Assembly (NCBI GenBank): GCA_002316795.1
Contig: DCEE01000043.1
Coordinates: 3,547 to 28,370 of the forward strand
DNA: 24,824 bases
DNA from: Synergistaceae bacterium UBA1037
GTDB taxonomy: Bacteria > Synergistota > Synergistia > Synergistales > Synergistaceae
Direction of reading: 5' to 3'
The notes beneath the pieces were generated by a model. It searched no databases. It worked only from the letters and a program-made list of their open reading frames with translations, and was not told the origin of the DNA. Every line of letters begins with the position of its first letter. The first letter of the stretch is position 1. Positions 10,360-24,824 of the stretch are shown here, one piece after another. The translations under genes and the position numbers were made by a program.

Positions 10360-11598
10360 ATGGATCTTCAGTCAACTCCGAGGGGCAACCGGCTCCACAT
10401 AGGTTTTTACGGCAGGCGGAATGCCGGGAAATCAAGTCTTATAAACCTTGTCACCGGCCAGCAGACAGCACTTGTATCGGATCATGCGGGGACGACCACC
10501 GACCCTGTCATAAAGAGCATGGAGCTGCTGCCTCTGGGACCTGTCGCGGTGATCGACACAGCCGGTCTTGATGATGAAGGCGATCTTGGAAGGCTTCGCA
10601 TTTCAAGGACCATGGAGATGATGGACAGGACAGACCTTGCCCTGCTCATCGTCTCCGCTGCTGATGCCTATGATACATCGCTGGAAAGAGGCTGGCTCGA
10701 AGAGCTTAGGAAGAGAAATATACCTGTTGTAGGCGTACTCAATCAGATAGACAGGGTCGGGCCGGAAAAGGCTGAAAAGATAAGGTCGGACCTTGAGGCC
10801 GGCCTCGGCATATCCTTTGCGGCAGTCTCAGCTAACGGAAGAGAATACAGAGCCGAGCTCCTGTCGGCAATAGTAAAAAATGCGCCGACTGATTTTGAAA
10901 GCCCGACGCTTGTCGGCGACATCTTCAGCAGGGGAGACTCTATAATACTGGTAGCCCCTCAGGACATCCAGGCACCCAAGGGAAGGCTCATACTTCCCCA
11001 GGTCCAGGTGATAAGGGACATCCTTGACAACAGGGGGATCGCCCTCACTGCCACGCTGGATCAGTTTCCGAAACTGTTGGATTCTCTGAAGGAACCTCCG
11101 GCGCTTGTCATAACGGACTCGCAGGTATTTCCGCAGGTAAATTCGATCCTTCCCCGCGATGTTCCCCTGACATCCTTCTCAATAGTTATGGCGAGGAACA
11201 AGGGGGATCTGGCTACCTTCGTCAGGGGGGCAAGGGTTATATGCGAACTGAAGGAGAGCGACAAGGTGCTTGTTGCCGAGGCCTGCACCCATGCGCCTCT
11301 GGAAGAGGATATAGGAAGGGAAAAGATCCCGAGGTGGCTCAGGGATAGAGTGGGCAGCGGGCTGACTGTGGACATTTCGACAGGACTTGATTTCCCCCCC
11401 AACATTAAGGAATACTCGCTGATCCTGCATTGCGGCGGATGCATGTTCACAAGAAAACAGCTTATGTCCAGGATGATAAAAGCTGATGCAGAGAATGTCC
11501 CGATAACAAATTACGGCATCGCGATCGCCGCGATCAACGGGATCCTGGAAAGAGTAATTGAAGTCTTCCCCGAATTCAGGAATGATGGCCCAAAATAG
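10360..11598 (+). CDS. hydF: [FeFe]-hydrogenase H-cluster maturation GTPase HydF
   Basis: This 412-residue protein has the HydF domain order. The N-terminal GTPase carries the P-loop GRRNAGKSS (18-26), the Thr switch in HAGTTTDP, DTAG (66-69), NQID (128-131) and SAN (157-159). A dimerisation domain follows, then the C-terminal [4Fe-4S] ligand set C309-x-H311 and H357-C358-x2-C361, matching CxH...HCxxC with the expected spacing. HydF is the scaffold that assembles the 2Fe subcluster and hands it to apo-hydrogenase. GAGGTGAGG overlapping the end of the upstream gene serves as its ribosome site, so it is coupled to the binding protein. HydE, HydG and the hydrogenase are not in this window. A strong terminator follows. 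Confidence 0.97.
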   Translation: MDLQSTPRGNRLHIGFYGRRNAGKSSLINLVTGQQTALVSDHAGTTTDPVIKSMELLPLGPVAVIDTAGLDDEGDLGRLRISRTMEMMDRTDLALLIVSAADAYDTSLERGWLEELRKRNIPVVGVLNQIDRVGPEKAEKIRSDLEAGLGISFAAVSANGREYRAELLSAIVKNAPTDFESPTLVGDIFSRGDSIILVAPQDIQAPKGRLILPQVQVIRDILDNRGIALTATLDQFPKLLDSLKEPPALVITDSQVFPQVNSILPRDVPLTSFSIVMARNKGDLATFVRGARVICELKESDKVLVAEACTHAPLEEDIGREKIPRWLRDRVGSGLTVDISTGLDFPPNIKEYSLILHCGGCMFTRKQLMSRMIKADAENVPITNYGIAIAAINGILERVIEVFPEFRNDGPK

Positions 11599-13134: not shown

Positions 13135-13611
13135 TCATTCGGGTTTGGGGTAGCGGTTGACCTTGCCTGTAATTTCTGTTATCCGGATCTTTACTACAGC
13201 GGTAACGCTCAGCTTTTCTTCCGTCATCGGTCCCTTGGGTCCCCTGTAATGTTCCATCATTATTTCGAGGGCCTCTCTCTTTTCTTTATTGTCCTCGATG
13301 AATTCTGCGATTCCCCGGCCCGATACGCTTTTGTACTTCATGCTGAATTTTGTTGGATCTTCTTCGTGCCGGATGATTTCGGCATCGACGGCAACGTTGA
13401 ATGCGACCTTATTGTTCTCTCTCAGAAGGTCGATCTTTTTGCCCTCTTTGGCGCAGTGGATTATTATGAAGTCATCACTGAACCCGTAATTTAGCGGAAC
13501 TATATAAGGCCAGCCATCCTTGCCCGCCAATGCCAGCTCCATCCATTGCCCCTGGTCAAGGACTTCCATCATCCAGTCATGGGATTCCACTTCCCTGTCA
13601 TTTCTCCTCAT
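13135..13611 (-). CDS. NimA-like pyridoxamine 5'-phosphate oxidase-family protein, copy A
   Basis: This 158-residue FMN-binding split-barrel protein of the COG3467/NimA type shows GKDGWPYIVPLNYGF and DDFIIIHCAKEGKKIDLLRENNKVAFNV, with the His followed by a Lys-rich flavin-phosphate loop, and a C-terminal VVKIRITEITGKVNRYPKP. Such proteins bind FMN or heme and some reduce 5-nitroimidazoles; the natural substrate is usually unknown. ATG 13611 is preferred over an upstream in-frame start at 13668 because AGGAGGTG lies 6 bases before it. It is a tandem paralogue of the next gene upstream (about 115 of 157 residues identical by eye). Confidence 0.85.
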   Translation of the reverse strand: MRRNDREVESHDWMMEVLDQGQWMELALAGKDGWPYIVPLNYGFSDDFIIIHCAKEGKKIDLLRENNKVAFNVAVDAEIIRHEEDPTKFSMKYKSVSGRGIAEFIEDNKEKREALEIMMEHYRGPKGPMTEEKLSVTAVVKIRITEITGKVNRYPKPE

Positions 13612-13733
13612 ATAGTACACCTCCTGAAATATTCTCAGATGAGTATAGAACATGAGGCTCCGGAGCACAACAAAATGGCCGGGACCGGCACGGCAGTTTG
13701 GCGTTAAAGCAGAGAGACCGTAGAAAATTACTG

Positions 13734-14207
13734 TCAGGGTTTGGGATAGAAGTTTATCTTTCCTGTAATTTCCGTTATCGATATCTTTATGACGGCAGTG
13801 GCTTTGAGCATACCTTCCGTAATGGGTTCCTTTGGTCCGTGGTAATGCTCCATAATTATTTTCAAGGCTTCTCTTTTTTCTTCGGCATCCTCGATAAACT
13901 TTGCAGTCCCGAGTCCGGAGACGCTCCTGTACTTCATGCTGAATTCGGATGGGTCATTTTCGTCCCGTATGACTTCTGTGTCGATGGCAACGTTGAATGC
14001 GACCTTATTGTTTTCCCTGAGGAGGTCGATCTTTTTACCCTCCCTTGCTCCGTGGACAATTATGAAATCCTTTCCGAACCCGTAATTGAGCGGGACGACA
14101 TAGGGCCATCCGTCTTTTCCTGACATCGCTAGTTCCATCCAGATGCCCTTTTCCAATACTTCCATCATCCATTCTCGCGAAGTGACTTCCTTATCTTTTC
14201 TTCTCAT
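13734..14207 (-). CDS. NimA-like pyridoxamine 5'-phosphate oxidase-family protein, copy B
   Basis: This 157-residue paralogue of copy A keeps the same length, GKDGWPYVVPLNYGF, the flavin loop FIIVHGAREGKKIDLLRENNK and the C-terminal EITGKINFYPKP. The Cys after the conserved His in copy A is Gly here. GGGGGTG precedes ATG 14207 by about 5 bases. About 120 bases separate its stop from the start of copy A, with no terminator seen, so both could be on one transcript. Together they look like a recent tandem duplication. The hisF stop lies 126 bases upstream on the same strand. Confidence 0.85.
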   Translation of the reverse strand: MRRKDKEVTSREWMMEVLEKGIWMELAMSGKDGWPYVVPLNYGFGKDFIIVHGAREGKKIDLLRENNKVAFNVAIDTEVIRDENDPSEFSMKYRSVSGLGTAKFIEDAEEKREALKIIMEHYHGPKEPITEGMLKATAVIKISITEITGKINFYPKP

Positions 14208-20424: not shown

Positions 20425-21546
20425 ATGGATAAAAAAGAGCTTTTCTACAGCATCGCGCGCCCAAATATAAGAGACCTTGAAGAATATGACCCCGGGCCGG
20501 TATTCCCCGATCTTGTCCGCATCTCGTCAAACGAAAACAACCTGGGTGTTTCGGGAAGGGCTATAGAGGCAATAAAAAACGCCGCTTCGGAATGCAACAG
20601 ATACGGCGACAGCAGGTGCGACAGCCTGAGGGATAAGCTTGCCCGCAAATACGGAATGACTCCGGGCCGGTTCGTGATCGGCAACGGCCTTGACGGTGTA
20701 TTTACGATGTTGGGACGCGCCTTCATCGAACCGGGGGACGAGGTGGTCTGCGGAGAACTTACCTTCTCCGTGTATGCGGAGACGGCTGAGATCATGGGGG
20801 GTAAAGCGGTCAAGGTCCCGATGACCGATGATATGGAACTGGATGTCGACGGGTTTGTCAGCGCGGTCACAGATAAAACCAGGATGGTCGTTTTCTGCAA
20901 TCCCAACAATCCGACTGGAACGGGAACGGGCATCGTGGATATCAGGAAAATGCTTGATGCTATACCCGAAAAGGTGCTTTTTGTCCTCGATGAGGCATAT
21001 ATAGAATTTGCCGATGAAAATACGGCTGACGGGATGACCCTGCTTGATGAATATCCTAATCTTATGGTCTGCAGGACATTCTCAAAGGTATACGGCCTGG
21101 CGGGTCTCCGTGTCGGATGGGTCGCAGGCGACGAAGATCTGATGAGATACCTTTACAAAGTCAGGGAACCTTATGTCGTATCAGTTCCCGCTGCTGCAGG
21201 AGCGGAAGCCGCTCTTGACGACATTGAGTTTTTGAGCAAAAGCGTTGATATGGCAAGAAATGAGAAAAAGAGGCTTTATGATTTCTTCCGCTCAAACAGC
21301 ATAAAATTCATCCCTTCACAGACCAACTTCATCCTTCTTCCGCTCGGTGATCTCTCTGCACCGCTTAGAGACGGCCTGCTTGAAGAGGGTATTATAGTAC
21401 GCCTTCTCCGTTTTCGGAGCAAAGGGATAATAAGGATCACCGTAGGACTTCCAGAAGAGAATACCCTGCTGATGGAAAAATTCATGGGGGTATACCGGGA
21501 GGCAAAATGTGACATTAAGGTTGACAATTATACAAAAGGTGAATAG
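20425..21546 (+). CDS. hisC: Histidinol-phosphate aminotransferase HisC
   Basis: This 373-residue fold-type I PLP enzyme has ISSNENNLGVSG near residue 34, CNPNNPTGTGTG (158-169), LDEAYIEFADE (D189, Y192), the PLP lysine K221 in RTFSKVYGLAGLRVGW, and a C-terminal IRITVGLPEEN with the substrate-carboxylate Arg. It transaminates imidazole-acetol phosphate with glutamate. GAGGAGGAG at the end of the upstream HAD gene is its ribosome site, so they form an operon. A promoter for the next transcription unit lies inside its last 30 bases. HisC-type enzymes may also transaminate aromatic 2-oxo acids. Confidence 0.94.
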   Translation: MDKKELFYSIARPNIRDLEEYDPGPVFPDLVRISSNENNLGVSGRAIEAIKNAASECNRYGDSRCDSLRDKLARKYGMTPGRFVIGNGLDGVFTMLGRAFIEPGDEVVCGELTFSVYAETAEIMGGKAVKVPMTDDMELDVDGFVSAVTDKTRMVVFCNPNNPTGTGTGIVDIRKMLDAIPEKVLFVLDEAYIEFADENTADGMTLLDEYPNLMVCRTFSKVYGLAGLRVGWVAGDEDLMRYLYKVREPYVVSVPAAAGAEAALDDIEFLSKSVDMARNEKKRLYDFFRSNSIKFIPSQTNFILLPLGDLSAPLRDGLLEEGIIVRLLRFRSKGIIRITVGLPEENTLLMEKFMGVYREAKCDIKVDNYTKGE

Positions 21547-21549
21547 AAT
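21521..21549 (+). promoter_or_regulatory. paaK: Promoter of the first paaK leader, inside the end of hisC
   Basis: TTGACA (21521-21526), 17 bases, TAGAAT (21544-21549), a near-consensus match. Transcription would start around 21556, giving a leader of about 285 bases before the ligase gene. Confidence 0.75.
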
Positions 21550-21602
21550 TACCTCCAACATCTTAAAAACAACGAACTGAAGTCGAGAGGAGGCACTGGG
21601 AC

Positions 21603-21704
21603 ATGACACATATCAAATACAGCATCACATCTTGTGGCAATGTTACGCAGTTCTCCTTTATCGGCGCGGGTCCCCTTCACGGGATCTGCGCTCGGGCTGC
21701 ATGA
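21603..21704 (+). CDS. 33-residue leader ORF 1 upstream of paaK copy 1
   Basis: ATG 21603 follows AGAGGAGG (21586-21593) within the string GGAGGCACTGGGACATGA, which is nearly identical to the one before the second leader ORF. The product is T/S/I-rich with single Tyr, two Phe, two Cys and no Trp, so it is not a run-of-one-amino-acid attenuator. Ungapped comparison with leader ORF 2 gives identical residues at positions 1, 9 (T), 10 (S), 13 (N), 23 and 27 (G), with similar residues at 14, 15 and 19. The stop TGA overlaps the base of a hairpin. Probably a translated leader peptide or small protein of unknown role. Confidence 0.5.
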   Translation: MTHIKYSITSCGNVTQFSFIGAGPLHGICARAA

Positions 21705-21805
21705 TTCGGACAGATTGACCGAATAACAGTATCGTTGCGTAAATCGCCGTTGAAGCAGGGCCCGCTCAAATGCGGACCCTGTTTTTTGTGCCTGCGTCAC
21801 GGCAC
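21664..21805 (+). promoter_or_regulatory. paaK: Attenuator-like fold of paaK leader 1
   Basis: Successive elements are a hairpin 21664-21674 with 21681-21691 (GCGC and GGTCCC with GGGATC and GCGC), a hairpin ATTCGG 21704-21709 with CCGAAT 21719-21724, the terminator at 21756-21787, and a small hairpin GTGCC 21788-21792 with GGCAC 21801-21805. GGGTCC (21668-21673) is also complementary to GGACCC (21774-21779) in the terminator's 3' arm, giving a possible alternative fold. The first hairpin lies inside the leader ORF, so ribosome position could influence the choice. Confidence 0.55.
21756..21787 (+). terminator. Intrinsic terminator in paaK leader 1
   Basis: CAGGGCCCGC (21756-21765) pairs with GCGGACCCTG (21772-21781) with one mismatch, loop TCAAAT, then six T. 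It sits between the leader ORF and the ligase start, 54 bases before ATG 21841. Confidence 0.85.
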
Positions 21806-21840
21806 ATAAGGATTAAAAAATTTACCTCAGGGAGGAAAAG

Positions 21841-23133
21841 ATGATGAAACTTGTAATAAGAAACGTTGAGACGAAAATATCAAGGATACGCTACACTTTG
21901 GAAAAAATGGTGGAAAGAGATCATCCATATGCACAGAAGATGAAGGAGTACGGTGTCAAGCCTGAACACATAAAGACGGCCCGCGATATGCAGCTCCTTC
22001 CCTACACGACGAAGCAAGATCTGCAGGAGCACTATCCTCTCGGCTGGCTCAACGTTGACAGGAAACACGTTGTTCGTTTTCATGCGACTTCCGGTACTAC
22101 AGGGAATCCTACAGTTGTATGCTACACACAGAATGACATAAAGATGTGGAGCGAGTGCGGAGCCTGGTGCCTTGGGCTCGCCGGGCTCGACGAGTGGGAC
22201 ACCCTCCAGGTCTCCTACGGATATGGACTCTTCACCGGAGGACTGGGAATGCACTACGCAGGTGAACATCGCGGACTTGCTGTGATACCGGCGTCGGGGG
22301 GAGCTACGGAAAAGCAGGTCAGGATGATAAAGGAGATGGGCGTCACTGCGATTGCATGCACTCCTTCCTACGCCCTCCGAATATCGGAGGTATGGGATGA
22401 CATTGACCCTGACCGTTTTTCAAACGGAGGCACAATGCTCAAGATAGGCATATTGGGCGCCGAACCTTGGTCGGAGGGGCTCAGGAAGCGTCTTGAGGAA
22501 AAACTAGGGATAAAGGCACTCGATATATATGGGCTGAGCGAGGCCATGGGCCCCGGAGTCGCAATGGAGTGCATCCATCAGAGCGGCCTCCATGTCAACG
22601 ACGAGGCGTTCCTTCCTGAAATAATCCACCCGGAGACGCTGAAGAATGTGGAAGACGGAGAAGAGGGAGAACTTGTCCTCACTTCGATCAAGAAGGAGGC
22701 ATACCCGATAATCCGCTACCGAACGAGAGACCGTACACGCATCCTGCCCGGTCCCTGCCCGTGCGGAGACCCCAGTGTACGCATAGACAGGATAGGGGGA
22801 AGGACCGACGATATGCTCATAGTTAGGGGCGTCAATGTCTTCCCGTCCCAGGTGGAGGCAGCCCTCTGCAGAGTAAAGGAGCTGACCCCCAATTTTGTGA
22901 TCGATGTATGGAAAAAGGACGGAATGGATGATATCGAAATTACATGCGAACGCGCTCCGGAGAGTGATCCGGGGGAAGTTGAACACATCAGGAATGAGAC
23001 CAAGAAGCGGCTGAAGGACAGCCTCGGGGTCAATATCGAGGTAAATGTCGCCGAACCGGATACCGTGCCGCGCTCTGAAGGAAAGGCGGTACGCATCAGG
23101 AGACATAAGGAAGAGCACGGCGCCAAAATTTAA
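21841..23133 (+). CDS. paaK: Phenylacetate-CoA ligase (AMP-forming) family, copy 1
   Basis: This 430-residue adenylate-forming enzyme of the PaaK branch has the P-loop-like ATSGTTGNP (82-90), GAEPWSEGLR (206-215), YGLSEAMGPGV (230-240), RYRTRD (292-297), the Cys pair in PGPCPCG, GRTDDMLIVRGVNVFPSQVE (320-339) and the likely catalytic K416 in PRSEGKAVRIR. It activates an arylacetate to the CoA thioester, or in peptide fermenters may run with arylacetyl-CoA made by ferredoxin-dependent oxidoreductases. Substrate could be phenyl-, hydroxyphenyl- or indole-acetate. GGGAGG at 21830-21835 is 5 bases from ATG 21841 and 8 from ATG 21844; either may be used. Preceded by its own promoter and attenuator-like leader. 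Confidence 0.9.
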   Translation: MMKLVIRNVETKISRIRYTLEKMVERDHPYAQKMKEYGVKPEHIKTARDMQLLPYTTKQDLQEHYPLGWLNVDRKHVVRFHATSGTTGNPTVVCYTQNDIKMWSECGAWCLGLAGLDEWDTLQVSYGYGLFTGGLGMHYAGEHRGLAVIPASGGATEKQVRMIKEMGVTAIACTPSYALRISEVWDDIDPDRFSNGGTMLKIGILGAEPWSEGLRKRLEEKLGIKALDIYGLSEAMGPGVAMECIHQSGLHVNDEAFLPEIIHPETLKNVEDGEEGELVLTSIKKEAYPIIRYRTRDRTRILPGPCPCGDPSVRIDRIGGRTDDMLIVRGVNVFPSQVEAALCRVKELTPNFVIDVWKKDGMDDIEITCERAPESDPGEVEHIRNETKKRLKDSLGVNIEVNVAEPDTVPRSEGKAVRIRRHKEEHGAKI

Positions 23134-23169: not shown

Positions 23170-23198
23170 TTGACAATCTCTGAAATATTATCTAAACT
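23170..23198 (+). promoter_or_regulatory. paaK: Promoter of the second paaK leader
   Basis: TTGACA (23170-23175), 17 bases, TAAACT (23193-23198). Both paaK promoters start TTGACAAT and use the same 17-base spacing. Transcription would begin near 23205. Confidence 0.75.
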
Positions 23199-23235: not shown

Positions 23236-23349
23236 ATGAAAATGGGTCTTGTAATAAAAACTTCAGCCAGAAACCTTTCTGTCGCAGTGTACTCTTATCC
23301 AGGCACGGATCCCGGCTCGCGGGATCAGTGTTTAGGTGCTGTGCGCTGA
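23236..23349 (+). CDS. 37-residue leader ORF 2 upstream of paaK copy 2
   Basis: ATG 23236 follows AAGGAGG (23221-23227) in the string GGAGGCACCGGACATGAA. The product begins MKMGLVIKTSARNLSVAV, contains YSYPGTDPG, one Cys and no Trp. It has weak position-for-position similarity to leader ORF 1 (T9, S10, N13, G23, G27). The stop falls inside a hairpin (23329-23352) and about 20 bases before the terminator. A transcript-regulating leader peptide or an unrecognised small protein family are both possible. Confidence 0.5.
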   Translation: MKMGLVIKTSARNLSVAVYSYPGTDPGSRDQCLGAVR

Positions 23350-23362: not shown

Positions 23363-23367
23363 AAGTG

Positions 23368-23408
23368 AGGACGGGGTCCGTGATTGTCGGGCCCCGTCCT
23401 TTTATTTT
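23368..23408 (+). terminator. Intrinsic terminator in paaK leader 2
   Basis: A 12-bp stem, 23368-23379 (AGGACGGGGTCC) with 23389-23400 (one G-U), loop of nine, followed by TTTTATTTT. It ends 32 bases before the ligase start at 23441. Confidence 0.9.
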
Positions 23409-23440: not shown

Positions 23441-24697
23441 ATGGTACACAGTGAAGCAGCGTCAGGTAAAACAACAGAACTTCAGGCAGTCTTGAGCAGG
23501 CTTTGGGACCGCAACCATCCCTATGCGGACAAGATGAAGGATGTCAGGGTCAAGCCCTCGGATATCCGTACGCCAAAAGATATTGAAAAACTGCCCTTCA
23601 CGACCAAACAGGACCTTCAGGCTCATTATCCGCTTGGGTGGCTTGGCTGCGACAAGGATGACCTGGTGCGCTTCCATGCCACATCAGGAACGACGGGCAA
23701 TCCTACTGTGGTCGGATACACGGCAAACGACATATTCTGGTGGAAGAAGGCCATGAAGACCGCATTCAAACGGGCTACGCTCACATCGAAGGATATACTG
23801 CAGATATCGACAGGTTACGGTCTCTTTACCGGAAGCCAGGGATTCCACGATGCGGCGGAAGATATGGGCATCACGGTCATCCCCGCAAGCGGAGGTTTTA
23901 CCGAACGTCAGTTCAAACTCATGCGCGATCTTGGCACGACAGTCTTCACATGTACCCCGTCCTATGCCGTAAAACTCTGTGAAGTCTGGGAAACATTCTC
24001 AGAGGAGGAAAAGGCAAAATACTGTCTCCGCCTTGGCATCTTCGGAGCTGAAGCATGGTCGGAAGGCCTGAGGGCGAAGATCCAGGATACTCTCGGCATA
24101 CCTGCGATCGACAGCTACGGCCTCTCAGAGGCTATGGGGCCGGGTGTGGGAATGGAATGTCTTGAGAGGAACGGGATCCATCTTTTTGACGAGGGTTTCA
24201 TATTTGAGATAATCGATCCTGAGACACTGAACCCCCTCGGGCCGGGCGAAGAGGGAGAACTTGTCATTACCTCACTTAAAAAAGAAGCCTTTCCGATAGT
24301 GCGCTACAGGACCCGTGACCTTACGAGCATAATACCCGGTGTCTGTAAATGCGGCGACAGGAGCACCAGGATCAAAAGGATCAAGGGACGCTCTGACGAC
24401 ATGATAATCTTCCACGGCGTGAACGTCTTCCCATCAGTAATTGAGAAGGCGCTCTGCAGGGTCTCGGGACTTACGGCCAACTATCAGATCAGGGTCTGGG
24501 AGGTCGATGGCTTCCAGCAGATGAGCGTCGCCTGTGAAAGGTCCGCTGACAGCACACAGGATATGGCGGACGCGCTCCTGGAGAAGGGCAAAAAATCCAT
24601 CCACAGCGCGCTCGGCATCCATGTTCCGCTGACGGTGGCAGAGCCCGGGACCCTTCCCAGGTTCGAGGGGAAATCAAAGCATATAGTAAGGGAATAA
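23441..24697 (+). CDS. paaK: Phenylacetate-CoA ligase (AMP-forming) family, copy 2
   Basis: This 418-residue paralogue of the gene at 21841 has the same motifs in order: FHATSGTTGNPTVV, GAEAWSEGLR, SYGLSEAMGPGVGMEC, RYRTRDLTSI, GVCKCGD, GRSDDMIIFHGVNVFPS and a C-terminal PRFEGKSKHIV with the likely catalytic Lys. Differences cluster in the region between the P-loop and the GAE motif, where substrate specificity is expected, so the two probably use different aryl acids. An in-frame start at 23384 lies in the terminator; GGGAGG about 7 bases before ATG 23441 marks the real start. It is also preceded by a small ORF and terminator. Confidence 0.9.
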   Translation: MVHSEAASGKTTELQAVLSRLWDRNHPYADKMKDVRVKPSDIRTPKDIEKLPFTTKQDLQAHYPLGWLGCDKDDLVRFHATSGTTGNPTVVGYTANDIFWWKKAMKTAFKRATLTSKDILQISTGYGLFTGSQGFHDAAEDMGITVIPASGGFTERQFKLMRDLGTTVFTCTPSYAVKLCEVWETFSEEEKAKYCLRLGIFGAEAWSEGLRAKIQDTLGIPAIDSYGLSEAMGPGVGMECLERNGIHLFDEGFIFEIIDPETLNPLGPGEEGELVITSLKKEAFPIVRYRTRDLTSIIPGVCKCGDRSTRIKRIKGRSDDMIIFHGVNVFPSVIEKALCRVSGLTANYQIRVWEVDGFQQMSVACERSADSTQDMADALLEKGKKSIHSALGIHVPLTVAEPGTLPRFEGKSKHIVRE

Positions 24698-24805: not shown

Positions 24806-24824
24806 GCCGGTGTAGCTCAGTTGG
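24806..24824 (+). tRNA. tRNA gene, 5' end only (cut by window edge)
   Basis: GCCGGTGTAGCTCAGTTGG has the 7-base acceptor strand, the U8 position and the D-arm start TAGCTCAGTTGG of a bacterial tRNA. The anticodon lies beyond the window. The 5' sequence would suit tRNA-Thr among others, but identity is not determined. Confidence 0.85.

Follow-up and report, generated by a model that had tools for sequence, protein, structure and literature searches.

A putative ribosome-mediated attenuator with exchangeable sensor codons upstream of phenylacetate-CoA ligase genes in Synergistota

Leaders upstream of two phenylacetate-CoA ligase genes

Analysis of a 24,824-nucleotide stretch of DNA from Synergistaceae bacterium UBA1037 (assembly GCA_002316795.1, contig DCEE01000043.1, positions 3,547 to 28,370; the whole stretch is called the window, and positions are counted from its first letter) revealed two paralogous genes of the phenylacetate-CoA ligase (PaaK) family, each preceded by a leader with a small open reading frame (ORF) and a predicted intrinsic terminator. 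The predicted gene paaK1 (21841 to 23133) belongs to the AMP-binding phenylacetate-CoA ligase family; its product scores 460 bits against NCBIfam TIGR02155, under the cutoff of 646.3, and the assignment of its substrate is putative. The paralogue paaK2 (23441 to 24697) is 53% identical. Both genes and all leader features described below lie on the plus strand.

Leader 1 has a predicted promoter (TTGACA-17-TAGAAT, 21521 to 21549) at the end of hisC. The first-pass annotation of this DNA had described this promoter as near consensus, and 11 of 12 consensus positions match. An identical promoter sequence lies upstream of the leader in two related loci (L005 and L030); the 4.4 kb scanned contained 8 promoter-like sites, compared with 3.7 (standard deviation, 1.8) in shuffled sequences. 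The further parts named in that annotation, i.e., a Shine-Dalgarno (SD) sequence, a 33-codon ORF, a hairpin within the ORF, and an intrinsic terminator, were all located. The SD sequence AGGAGG (21588 to 21593) leads the ORF (MTHIKYSITSCGNVTQFSFIGAGPLHGICARAA, 21603 to 21704), which is conserved in relatives and contains the codons TTC TCC TTT for Phe-Ser-Phe (FSF, 21651 to 21659) directly 5' of the ORF hairpin. This hairpin (21663 to 21692), the predicted anti-antiterminator, consists of arms 1 (21663 to 21674) and 2 (21681 to 21692). Its 5' arm and loop contain a strand recognized by duplex comparison and designated 1L (GCGGGUCCCCUUCA, 21666 to 21679). Strand 3, extended at its 5' end (UGAAGCAGGGCCCGC, 21751 to 21765), has alternative partners; with 1L it would form an antiterminator, and with strand 4 it would form the predicted terminator (21756 to 21787), which comprises the stem CAGGGCCCGC/GCGGACCCTG (21756 to 21781) and six T residues (21782 to 21787). 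The terminator stem has one internal mismatch and was missed by a simple terminator scan. Folding of the region from 21556 to 21800 yielded -87.7 kcal/mol (z score, -3.70), a value equaled by 0 of 200 shuffled sequences.

Leader 2, located between the two paaK genes, has the same organization. A promoter scan predicted TTGACA-17-TAAACT at 23170 to 23198, and comparison of the leaders identified an ORF of 37 codons (MKMGLVIKTSARNLSVAVYSYPGTDPGSRDQCLGAVR, 23236 to 23349) in which TAC TCT TAT (Tyr-Ser-Tyr, YSY, 23290 to 23298) replaces Phe-Ser-Phe. Duplex comparison placed 1L at 23307 to 23320 (GGAUCCCGGCUCGC), and folding, scanning, and duplex comparison together placed the downstream part at 23365 to 23408, with strand 3 at 23365 to 23379 (GUGAGGACGGGGUCC), the terminator stem at 23367 to 23401, and a T-rich tail at 23400 to 23408. 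The fold of leader 2 has a z score of -3.75, and 0 of 200 shuffled sequences were as good. An FSF leader before the first PaaK gene and a YSY leader before the second were found in seven genomes (G000, G005, G006, G007, G008, G040, and G041). The distance from YSY to the hairpin is equal in six of the seven, and G040 has two extra codons (YSYYY). Since the pair of leaders in these genomes is probably the product of a single evolutionary event, it was counted once. The arrangement suggests that one PaaK paralogue is governed by a Phe sensor and the other by a Tyr sensor.

Conservation of the leader, its competing helices, and its sensor codons

PaaK homologues were found at an E value of ≤1e-80 in 43 of 52 genomes of the family. 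A base pattern of the FSF region matched in 59 of 185 Synergistota genomes, chance matches included; two matches (G002:C4 and G039:C24) showed no such leader on inspection and were taken as chance. With a stricter motif, 40 of 40 distinct places in the fetched loci, which are mutual relatives fetched for PaaK or for the base pattern, lay in frame within a small SD-led ORF. A permissive DNA pattern for the leader was dropped because its match rate was about that of a reversed control. When a terminator was required, 51 leaders were obtained in Synergistota, near-duplicates included. They have in common the ORF with an aromatic motif just 5' of the ORF hairpin. The first half of the leader peptides is variable, and most then share FSF[TI][GS]x[GD]P and G[IV]C. 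The genes behind these leaders encode PaaK, AroB, AroA, prephenate dehydrogenase, an MFS transporter, and an ELFV dehydrogenase accompanied by an SNF transporter; an acylphosphatase operon that includes PaaK and an ACT protein is likewise preceded by such a leader. Nine leaders of shikimate/tyrA operons carry Tyr codons close 5' of FSF (e.g., VYSYSAVFSF, VYYYTTLFSF, and YFYFTSFSF), and L177 to L180 lie directly upstream of tyrA, as determined by tblastn.

A covariance model built from 30 leaders and run on the 185 genomes gave matches in 100 of them at an E value of ≤0.05, chance matches included. By our own count of the list, 84 matches, seeds included, had E values of <1e-5. Of the 20 weakest among these, 19 were inspected (all except the match in G068), and all 19 proved to be leaders with an aromatic or branched-chain sensor motif; some ORFs of weak matches had been missed by the SD filter and were read by eye. 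Eighty further matches, down to an E value of about 0.009, were fetched, and 68 of these regions were judged to bear a leader (L249 is doubtful, and L278 is cut at a contig end). The 12 regions without a leader comprised, by our own reading, 11 of the 40 weaker matches and 1 of the 40 others. The first-pass annotation had stated that its proposal would fall if neither the ORF nor the hairpins were conserved in relatives; both are conserved. In genome G000, which has a third covariance model match at an E value of ≤0.05, a scan of the surroundings of the aro and phe genes (C24) found no leader. The third PaaK paralogue of this genome (C36), about 0.7 kb behind the gene for IOR alpha, has no such leader directly upstream, the region before the IOR gene not having been read.

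The mutually exclusive helices were analyzed by exchanging pairing partners among 36 nonredundant leaders, with L145 and L059 left out because their terminators were misplaced. The 1L:3 duplex was more stable with its own partner than with those of other leaders (-25.1 versus -19.4 kcal/mol; permutation P = 5e-5), and the same was true for ORF hairpin 1:2 (-21.0 versus -19.2 kcal/mol; P = 5e-5). An antiterminator formed by arms 2 and 3 was rejected, because it reached a P value of ≤0.05 in 6 of 51 leaders and own partners were not preferred (P = 0.42). The first-pass annotation had noted that GGGTCC within the ORF hairpin is complementary to the 3' arm of the terminator. Its complement, GGACCC, is present there; however, the pairing supported by comparison, and taken here as the antiterminator, involves the 5' arm of the terminator. 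In the fetched regions, 37 nonredundant leaders outside the defining set (from 55 of the 80 regions) gave -23.4 versus -19.0 kcal/mol for 1L:3, the 68 leader-bearing regions gave -22.5 versus -17.5 kcal/mol (49 nonredundant leaders), and all 80 regions gave -20.2 versus -15.9 kcal/mol (n = 61), with P = 5e-5 in each case. The 12 leaderless regions, used as a control, gave -10.6 versus -10.0 kcal/mol (P = 0.24).

The bases of the loop and those before the terminator change together, as in CUUCA/UGAAG, GUUUC/GAAAC, GCUUU/AAAGC, CACAUG/CAUGUG, and CUCGC/GUGAG. Alignments A1, A2, A3, and A4 used 14 of 17, 18 of 19, 9 of 9, and 30 of 36 leaders, respectively. In group A2, 86.4% of the cells of 1L:3 are paired, 8 of 16 pairs show two-sided changes, and the covariation score was reached by 0 of 500 shuffled alignments; in group A3, 92.2% of the cells are paired, and the score was reached by 36 of 500. 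These shuffle counts, including the one given below for A1, are not probabilities. In group A1, which contains leader 1, 94.5% of the cells are paired. Slid controls for A3 and A1 gave 19 to 53% paired cells. The SD-led ORFs, presumably translated, stand together with mutually exclusive antiterminator and anti-antiterminator helices and an intrinsic terminator before the gene. The conserved ORF and the mutually exclusive helices in relatives support the transcription attenuation proposed in the first-pass annotation.

The codons at the FSF position vary with the gene behind the leader, where relatives carry Phe/Tyr runs, Tyr-Ser-Tyr, or Ile or Leu runs. Genes downstream of the divergent leaders were identified by tblastn with Pfam-tested representatives, one of which had no Pfam match, and a gene was named behind 50 of the 68. 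Twenty encode PaaK and follow the motifs RFFF, FYFYYF, VFSF, RYYF, GYFF, FAFTYYY, FGFVYFY, FFFF, FFFFF, and FFFSF. Leaders with Phe and Tyr codons precede genes for TyrA (four cases), DAHP synthase (three cases), PheA, and AroB (one case each), with the cut L278 among them. Two threonine dehydratase-like genes follow IIII leaders, three leuA genes follow LLLG leaders, and two genes for the small subunit of acetolactate synthase follow leaders with mixed Ile, Leu, and Val codons. PaaK cases come from families f1, f2, f4, f5, f7, and f10 and, as judged by eye, f6. That the ORF of leader 1 lacks a run of one amino acid had been raised as an objection to attenuation. The objection loses its force because, in relatives, leaders of this class before PaaK genes, confirmed by tblastn, carry FFF, FFFF, FFFFF, FYFYYF, or YYF at the same place.

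Leaders with Ile runs were also observed in ten Synergistaceae genomes (L261, L262, L264 to L269, L272, and L274) before a gene for the gamma subunit of a POR-type enzyme (pyruvate/2-oxoacid:ferredoxin oxidoreductase), which suggests that this oxidoreductase may serve Ile supply. The threonine dehydratase-like proteins reached no NCBIfam cutoff and the POR-type gamma subunit reaches only that of the broad TIGR02175, and both names are therefore approximate. A table of leader peptides compiled by hand shows two aromatic residues, either side by side or with one residue between them, in 32 of 32 PaaK leaders and in 15 of 15 leaders of shikimate, Phe, or Tyr genes, none of which contains III. All 11 threonine dehydratase-like and POR gamma leaders contain III, and both leuA leaders of the table also satisfy this loose aromatic definition. 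Because many PaaK and shikimate leaders had been chosen by their FSF, the divergent leaders carry the weight of the match between codons and genes. In the relatives, the sensor codons fit the amino acid of the regulated gene; for PaaK and POR, this statement assumes a role in supply.

Several other leaders were noted. L226, L232, L248, and L251 are leaders with Phe, Tyr, Trp, or Ile codons before membrane proteins of one type, 38 to 87% identical to that of L226, which are perhaps amino acid transporters; the L226 protein, the only one tested, had no Pfam or NCBIfam match. L238 (331 to 474) is a Tyr/Phe leader (SYSYVAWFYF) before a gene unlike those of aromatic metabolism (its product starts with MANELQSLSVLFQNRLFRIPDYQRGYAWKYEQL). 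Two leaders of the family look like classical attenuators, namely, L174 in G001 (10226, plus strand), with WWW before a gene resembling trpE by eye, and L173 in G004 (3282, plus strand), with MKQFAAYQFYFGYFYFFSPQS (FYFGYFYFF) before a relative of DAHP synthase.

Direction of the response and alternative explanations

The E. coli-type trp, phe, his, leu, and ilv leaders are ribosome-mediated attenuators of amino acid operons. The Synergistota leaders share with them an SD-led ORF whose codons specify the product amino acid, hairpins that compete with one another, and an intrinsic terminator before the gene. In trp-type leaders, strand 1, which is hidden by the stalled ribosome, is the partner of antiterminator strand 2. 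In contrast, the leaders described here place the antiterminator strand after the sensor codons and the sequestering strand downstream of it, still within the ORF; part of the antiterminator comes from the loop of this hairpin, and the regulated gene is paaK. The trp-type order of helices (1:2, 2:3, and 3:4) was not found, 1L:3 standing in place of a duplex between arms 2 and 3.

It is likely that leader 1 is a ribosome-mediated transcription attenuator sensing charged tRNA-Phe and that leader 2 is the tRNA-Tyr version. Translation, stalling, and the direction and size of the response in these two leaders are inferred. A ribosome would translate the leader ORF close behind RNA polymerase. A shortage of Phe would stall it on F-S-F of leader 1, and a shortage of Tyr on Y-S-Y of leader 2, a few bases 5' of the ORF hairpin, and its front edge would mask the 5' part of the hairpin and cripple 1:2. 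The remaining 5' arm and loop (1L) would then form a duplex with the terminator's upstream arm (1L:3), permitting readthrough into paaK. When the amino acid is plentiful, the ribosome would finish and depart, the ORF hairpin would re-form, strand 3 would be free, and the terminator (3:4) would form. With an assumed ribosome footprint based on toeprinting, stalling with the second Phe codon in the A site would hide the RNA to about +18 of the motif, and the loop part of the antiterminator would lie beyond the reach of the stalled ribosome. As the first free base moves from +12 to +19, the median energy of the ORF hairpin changes from -19.8 to -6.2 kcal/mol and that of 1L:3 from -25.0 to -16.9 kcal/mol (n = 36). 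Since the hairpin loses more stability than 1L:3 does, a ribosome halted there would inactivate the hairpin that otherwise releases strand 3 and leave much of the antiterminator intact. The genes and the partly ambiguous energies suggest that starvation would be the ON state of both leaders, and the assigned direction rests mainly on the shared module because biosynthetic genes carry the same leaders.

Several observations weigh against this interpretation. Without a ribosome and before strand 4 is made, 1L:3 dominates at equilibrium (mean, 0.81); masking up to a first free base of +19 reduces this value to 0.60. Because 1L:3 already wins at equilibrium, the OFF state depends on the ORF hairpin forming first, i.e., on kinetics. 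When arm 2 is barred from pairing, a cruder comparison that is biased against 1L:3, stalling brings no benefit at F1 or F2 (medians of +0.9 and +2.5 kcal/mol; -1.1 kcal/mol between them), and the antiterminator is favored by -8 to -10 kcal/mol once the ribosome has come close to the stop codon, which fits the opposite logic. A rise in readthrough upon stalling is compatible with the free-base energies, ambiguous with arm 2 barred, and not seen at equilibrium. A shift of three bases in the assumed footprint alters the energetic outcome. FSF is nearly invariant in its bases and pairs with the SD sequence of its own leader in two groups, which offers another explanation for its conservation. The 1L:3 helix of group A1 varies too little for its covariation to be informative, and 88 of 500 shuffled alignments reached its score. 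Finally, 18 of the 68 leader-bearing regions, many with Ile/Leu/Val leaders, have no identified gene, and the Tyr/Phe leader at G142:C40 precedes a gene not obviously connected with aromatic amino acids.

The same parts could also work in the reverse direction, with a ribosome lingering at the end of the ORF covering arm 2 and freeing 1L, so that abundant Phe would turn the gene ON, following a catabolic logic. The usual role of phenylacetate-CoA ligase in catabolism counts for this alternative, as do the effect of a ribosome near the stop codon and the equilibrium loss of 1L:3 under masking from the sensor codons, both described above. We nevertheless consider it unlikely. The same module precedes aroA, aroB, aroF, tyrA, pheA, leuA, and the gene for the small subunit of acetolactate synthase, the distance from the motif to the stop codon varies between 45 and 93 bases, and a ribosome stalled on the sensor codons weakens the ORF hairpin more than it weakens 1L:3.

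Attenuation by ribosomes that stall on scarce aminoacyl-tRNA also accounts better for the leader peptides than a TnaC-like arrest peptide would, in which nascent FSFTGxGP stalls the ribosome upon binding a metabolite. The conservation of FSF[TI][GS]x[GD]P among Synergistaceae leaders agrees with such a peptide; however, the residues after FSF are encoded by the conserved hairpin, and the same hairpins occur in relatives with FFFFF, YYF, IIIIII, or LLLG, matching the gene. A stall-site peptide conserved regardless of RNA and gene was not found; the peptide tracks the gene, and the hairpins stay. An arrest peptide is thus very improbable. Slightly less credit is given to the idea that FSF is a by-product of a helix masking the SD sequence (UCUCCUUU against AAAGGAGG) in a leader that senses general translation. 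In leader 1, AGGAGG is a partial complement of the Phe-Ser-Phe codons UUCUCCUUU, RNAalifold includes the resulting helix in its consensus for groups A2 and A3, not for group A1, which contains leader 1, and TTCTCCTTT is nearly invariant. Against this idea, much of the complementarity, as judged by eye, is gone from leader 2 and the divergent leaders, which keep aromatic, Ile, or Leu codons there. The poorest candidate is a metabolite-binding riboswitch with an incidental ORF, for which the long structured leader with its terminator and its z score of -3.70 would speak; against it, no aptamer-like conserved core is seen apart from the competing arms, the ORF, SD sequence, and codon identity follow the gene, and, in agreement with the first-pass annotation, which had recognized no riboswitch class, the window matched no Rfam family at its gathering score.

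Published work describes related elements. The uORFC-13-1 motif before aroF in Acholeplasma (PMC8632094) resembles the present leaders in combining a candidate upstream ORF (uORF) of Phe codons with a terminator before a shikimate gene, and, as far as the consulted part of that article goes, differs in its genus and in lying upstream of aroF only. Two candidate F/Y uORFs are tied to shikimate genes in the Fig. 6b legend of PMC6429828, in which Thermovirga lienii (Synergistetes) is among five genomes analyzed; these uORFs possibly belong to the same class in Synergistota, the text not stating their source genome, and its main text contains 0 occurrences of "phenylacet." The classical attenuators of Actinobacteria, in the portion of PMC1262725 consulted, have leaders with Trp, Leu, or Cys codons and conserved complementary triples in the trp attenuators, and they differ in phylum and genes. 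The consulted portion of PMC9413887 deals with HisR in Synergistetes and not with these leaders. Among the open-access matches listed, judged by titles and the beginnings of abstracts, there was no attenuation before paaK and no amino acid attenuator of Synergistota. Ribosome-mediated attenuation is known; the present variant looks new because of its strand order and because one module accepts different sensor codons throughout the phylum.

PaaK genes and amino acid supply in Synergistota

The first-pass annotation had placed leader 1 in the context of aromatic acid metabolism. The context looks instead like amino acid supply, not aromatic catabolism, because the class also precedes the biosynthetic genes listed above. 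Among the 52 genomes of the family, chorismate synthase was found in 24, prephenate dehydratase in 26, and IOR alpha in 49; the genome of the window contains all three. Among genomes that are at least 90% complete and have an inspected FSF leader before PaaK, chorismate synthase and prephenate dehydratase are both present in 12 and both absent from nine (G022, G023, G024, G032, G041, G042, G045, G046, and G048; the contamination of G022 and G023 is 7%), and IOR alpha matched in eight of these nine. In Methanococcus maripaludis, aryl acids feed aromatic amino acid synthesis (Porat et al., as cited in the part of PMC4162585 consulted). By analogy, a Phe-codon attenuator on PaaK would be sensible in genomes lacking the pathway if PaaK and IOR make phenylpyruvate from phenylacetate. 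PaaK1 and PaaK2 may activate phenylacetate and 4-hydroxyphenylacetate, which IOR would then reductively carboxylate to yield the keto acids of Phe and Tyr, or they may contribute to Phe and Tyr supply in some other way; other uses of phenylacetate are possible.

Elsewhere in the window, two similar adjacent ORFs on the minus strand (13135 to 13668 and 13734 to 14207) look by eye like a tandem duplicate of a pyridoxamine phosphate oxidase-like gene, and an ORF at 10360 to 11598 resembles, by eye, the hydrogenase maturation GTPase HydF. The window ends within an apparent tRNA gene (24806 to 24824, GCCGGTGTAGCTCAGTTGG, by eye).

PaaK here seems to be regulated as a Phe/Tyr supply gene, perhaps via arylacetate assimilation with IOR, which suggests that a gene annotated for the breakdown of aromatic compounds is run like an amino acid biosynthesis gene. 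In its widest form, to which we give an even chance, the proposal is that Synergistota have a modular attenuator, in which one conserved RNA switch with its antiterminator strand directly 3' of the sensor codons accepts swappable codons (Phe, Tyr, Phe plus Tyr, Ile, Leu, or mixed Ile/Leu/Val), and that PaaK and the POR-type oxidoreductase, enzymes commonly interpreted as catabolic, provide starvation-induced supply by reductively carboxylating scavenged acids, with Phe made from phenylacetate and Tyr from 4-hydroxyphenylacetate. The annotation of phenylacetate catabolism would give way to the opposite role, a claim that can be tested. If the proposal is true, the codon set of a leader would predict the substrate of the paralogue behind it, and this phylum of mostly uncultured anaerobes would have a readable regulatory code in which the leader codons name the amino acid served.

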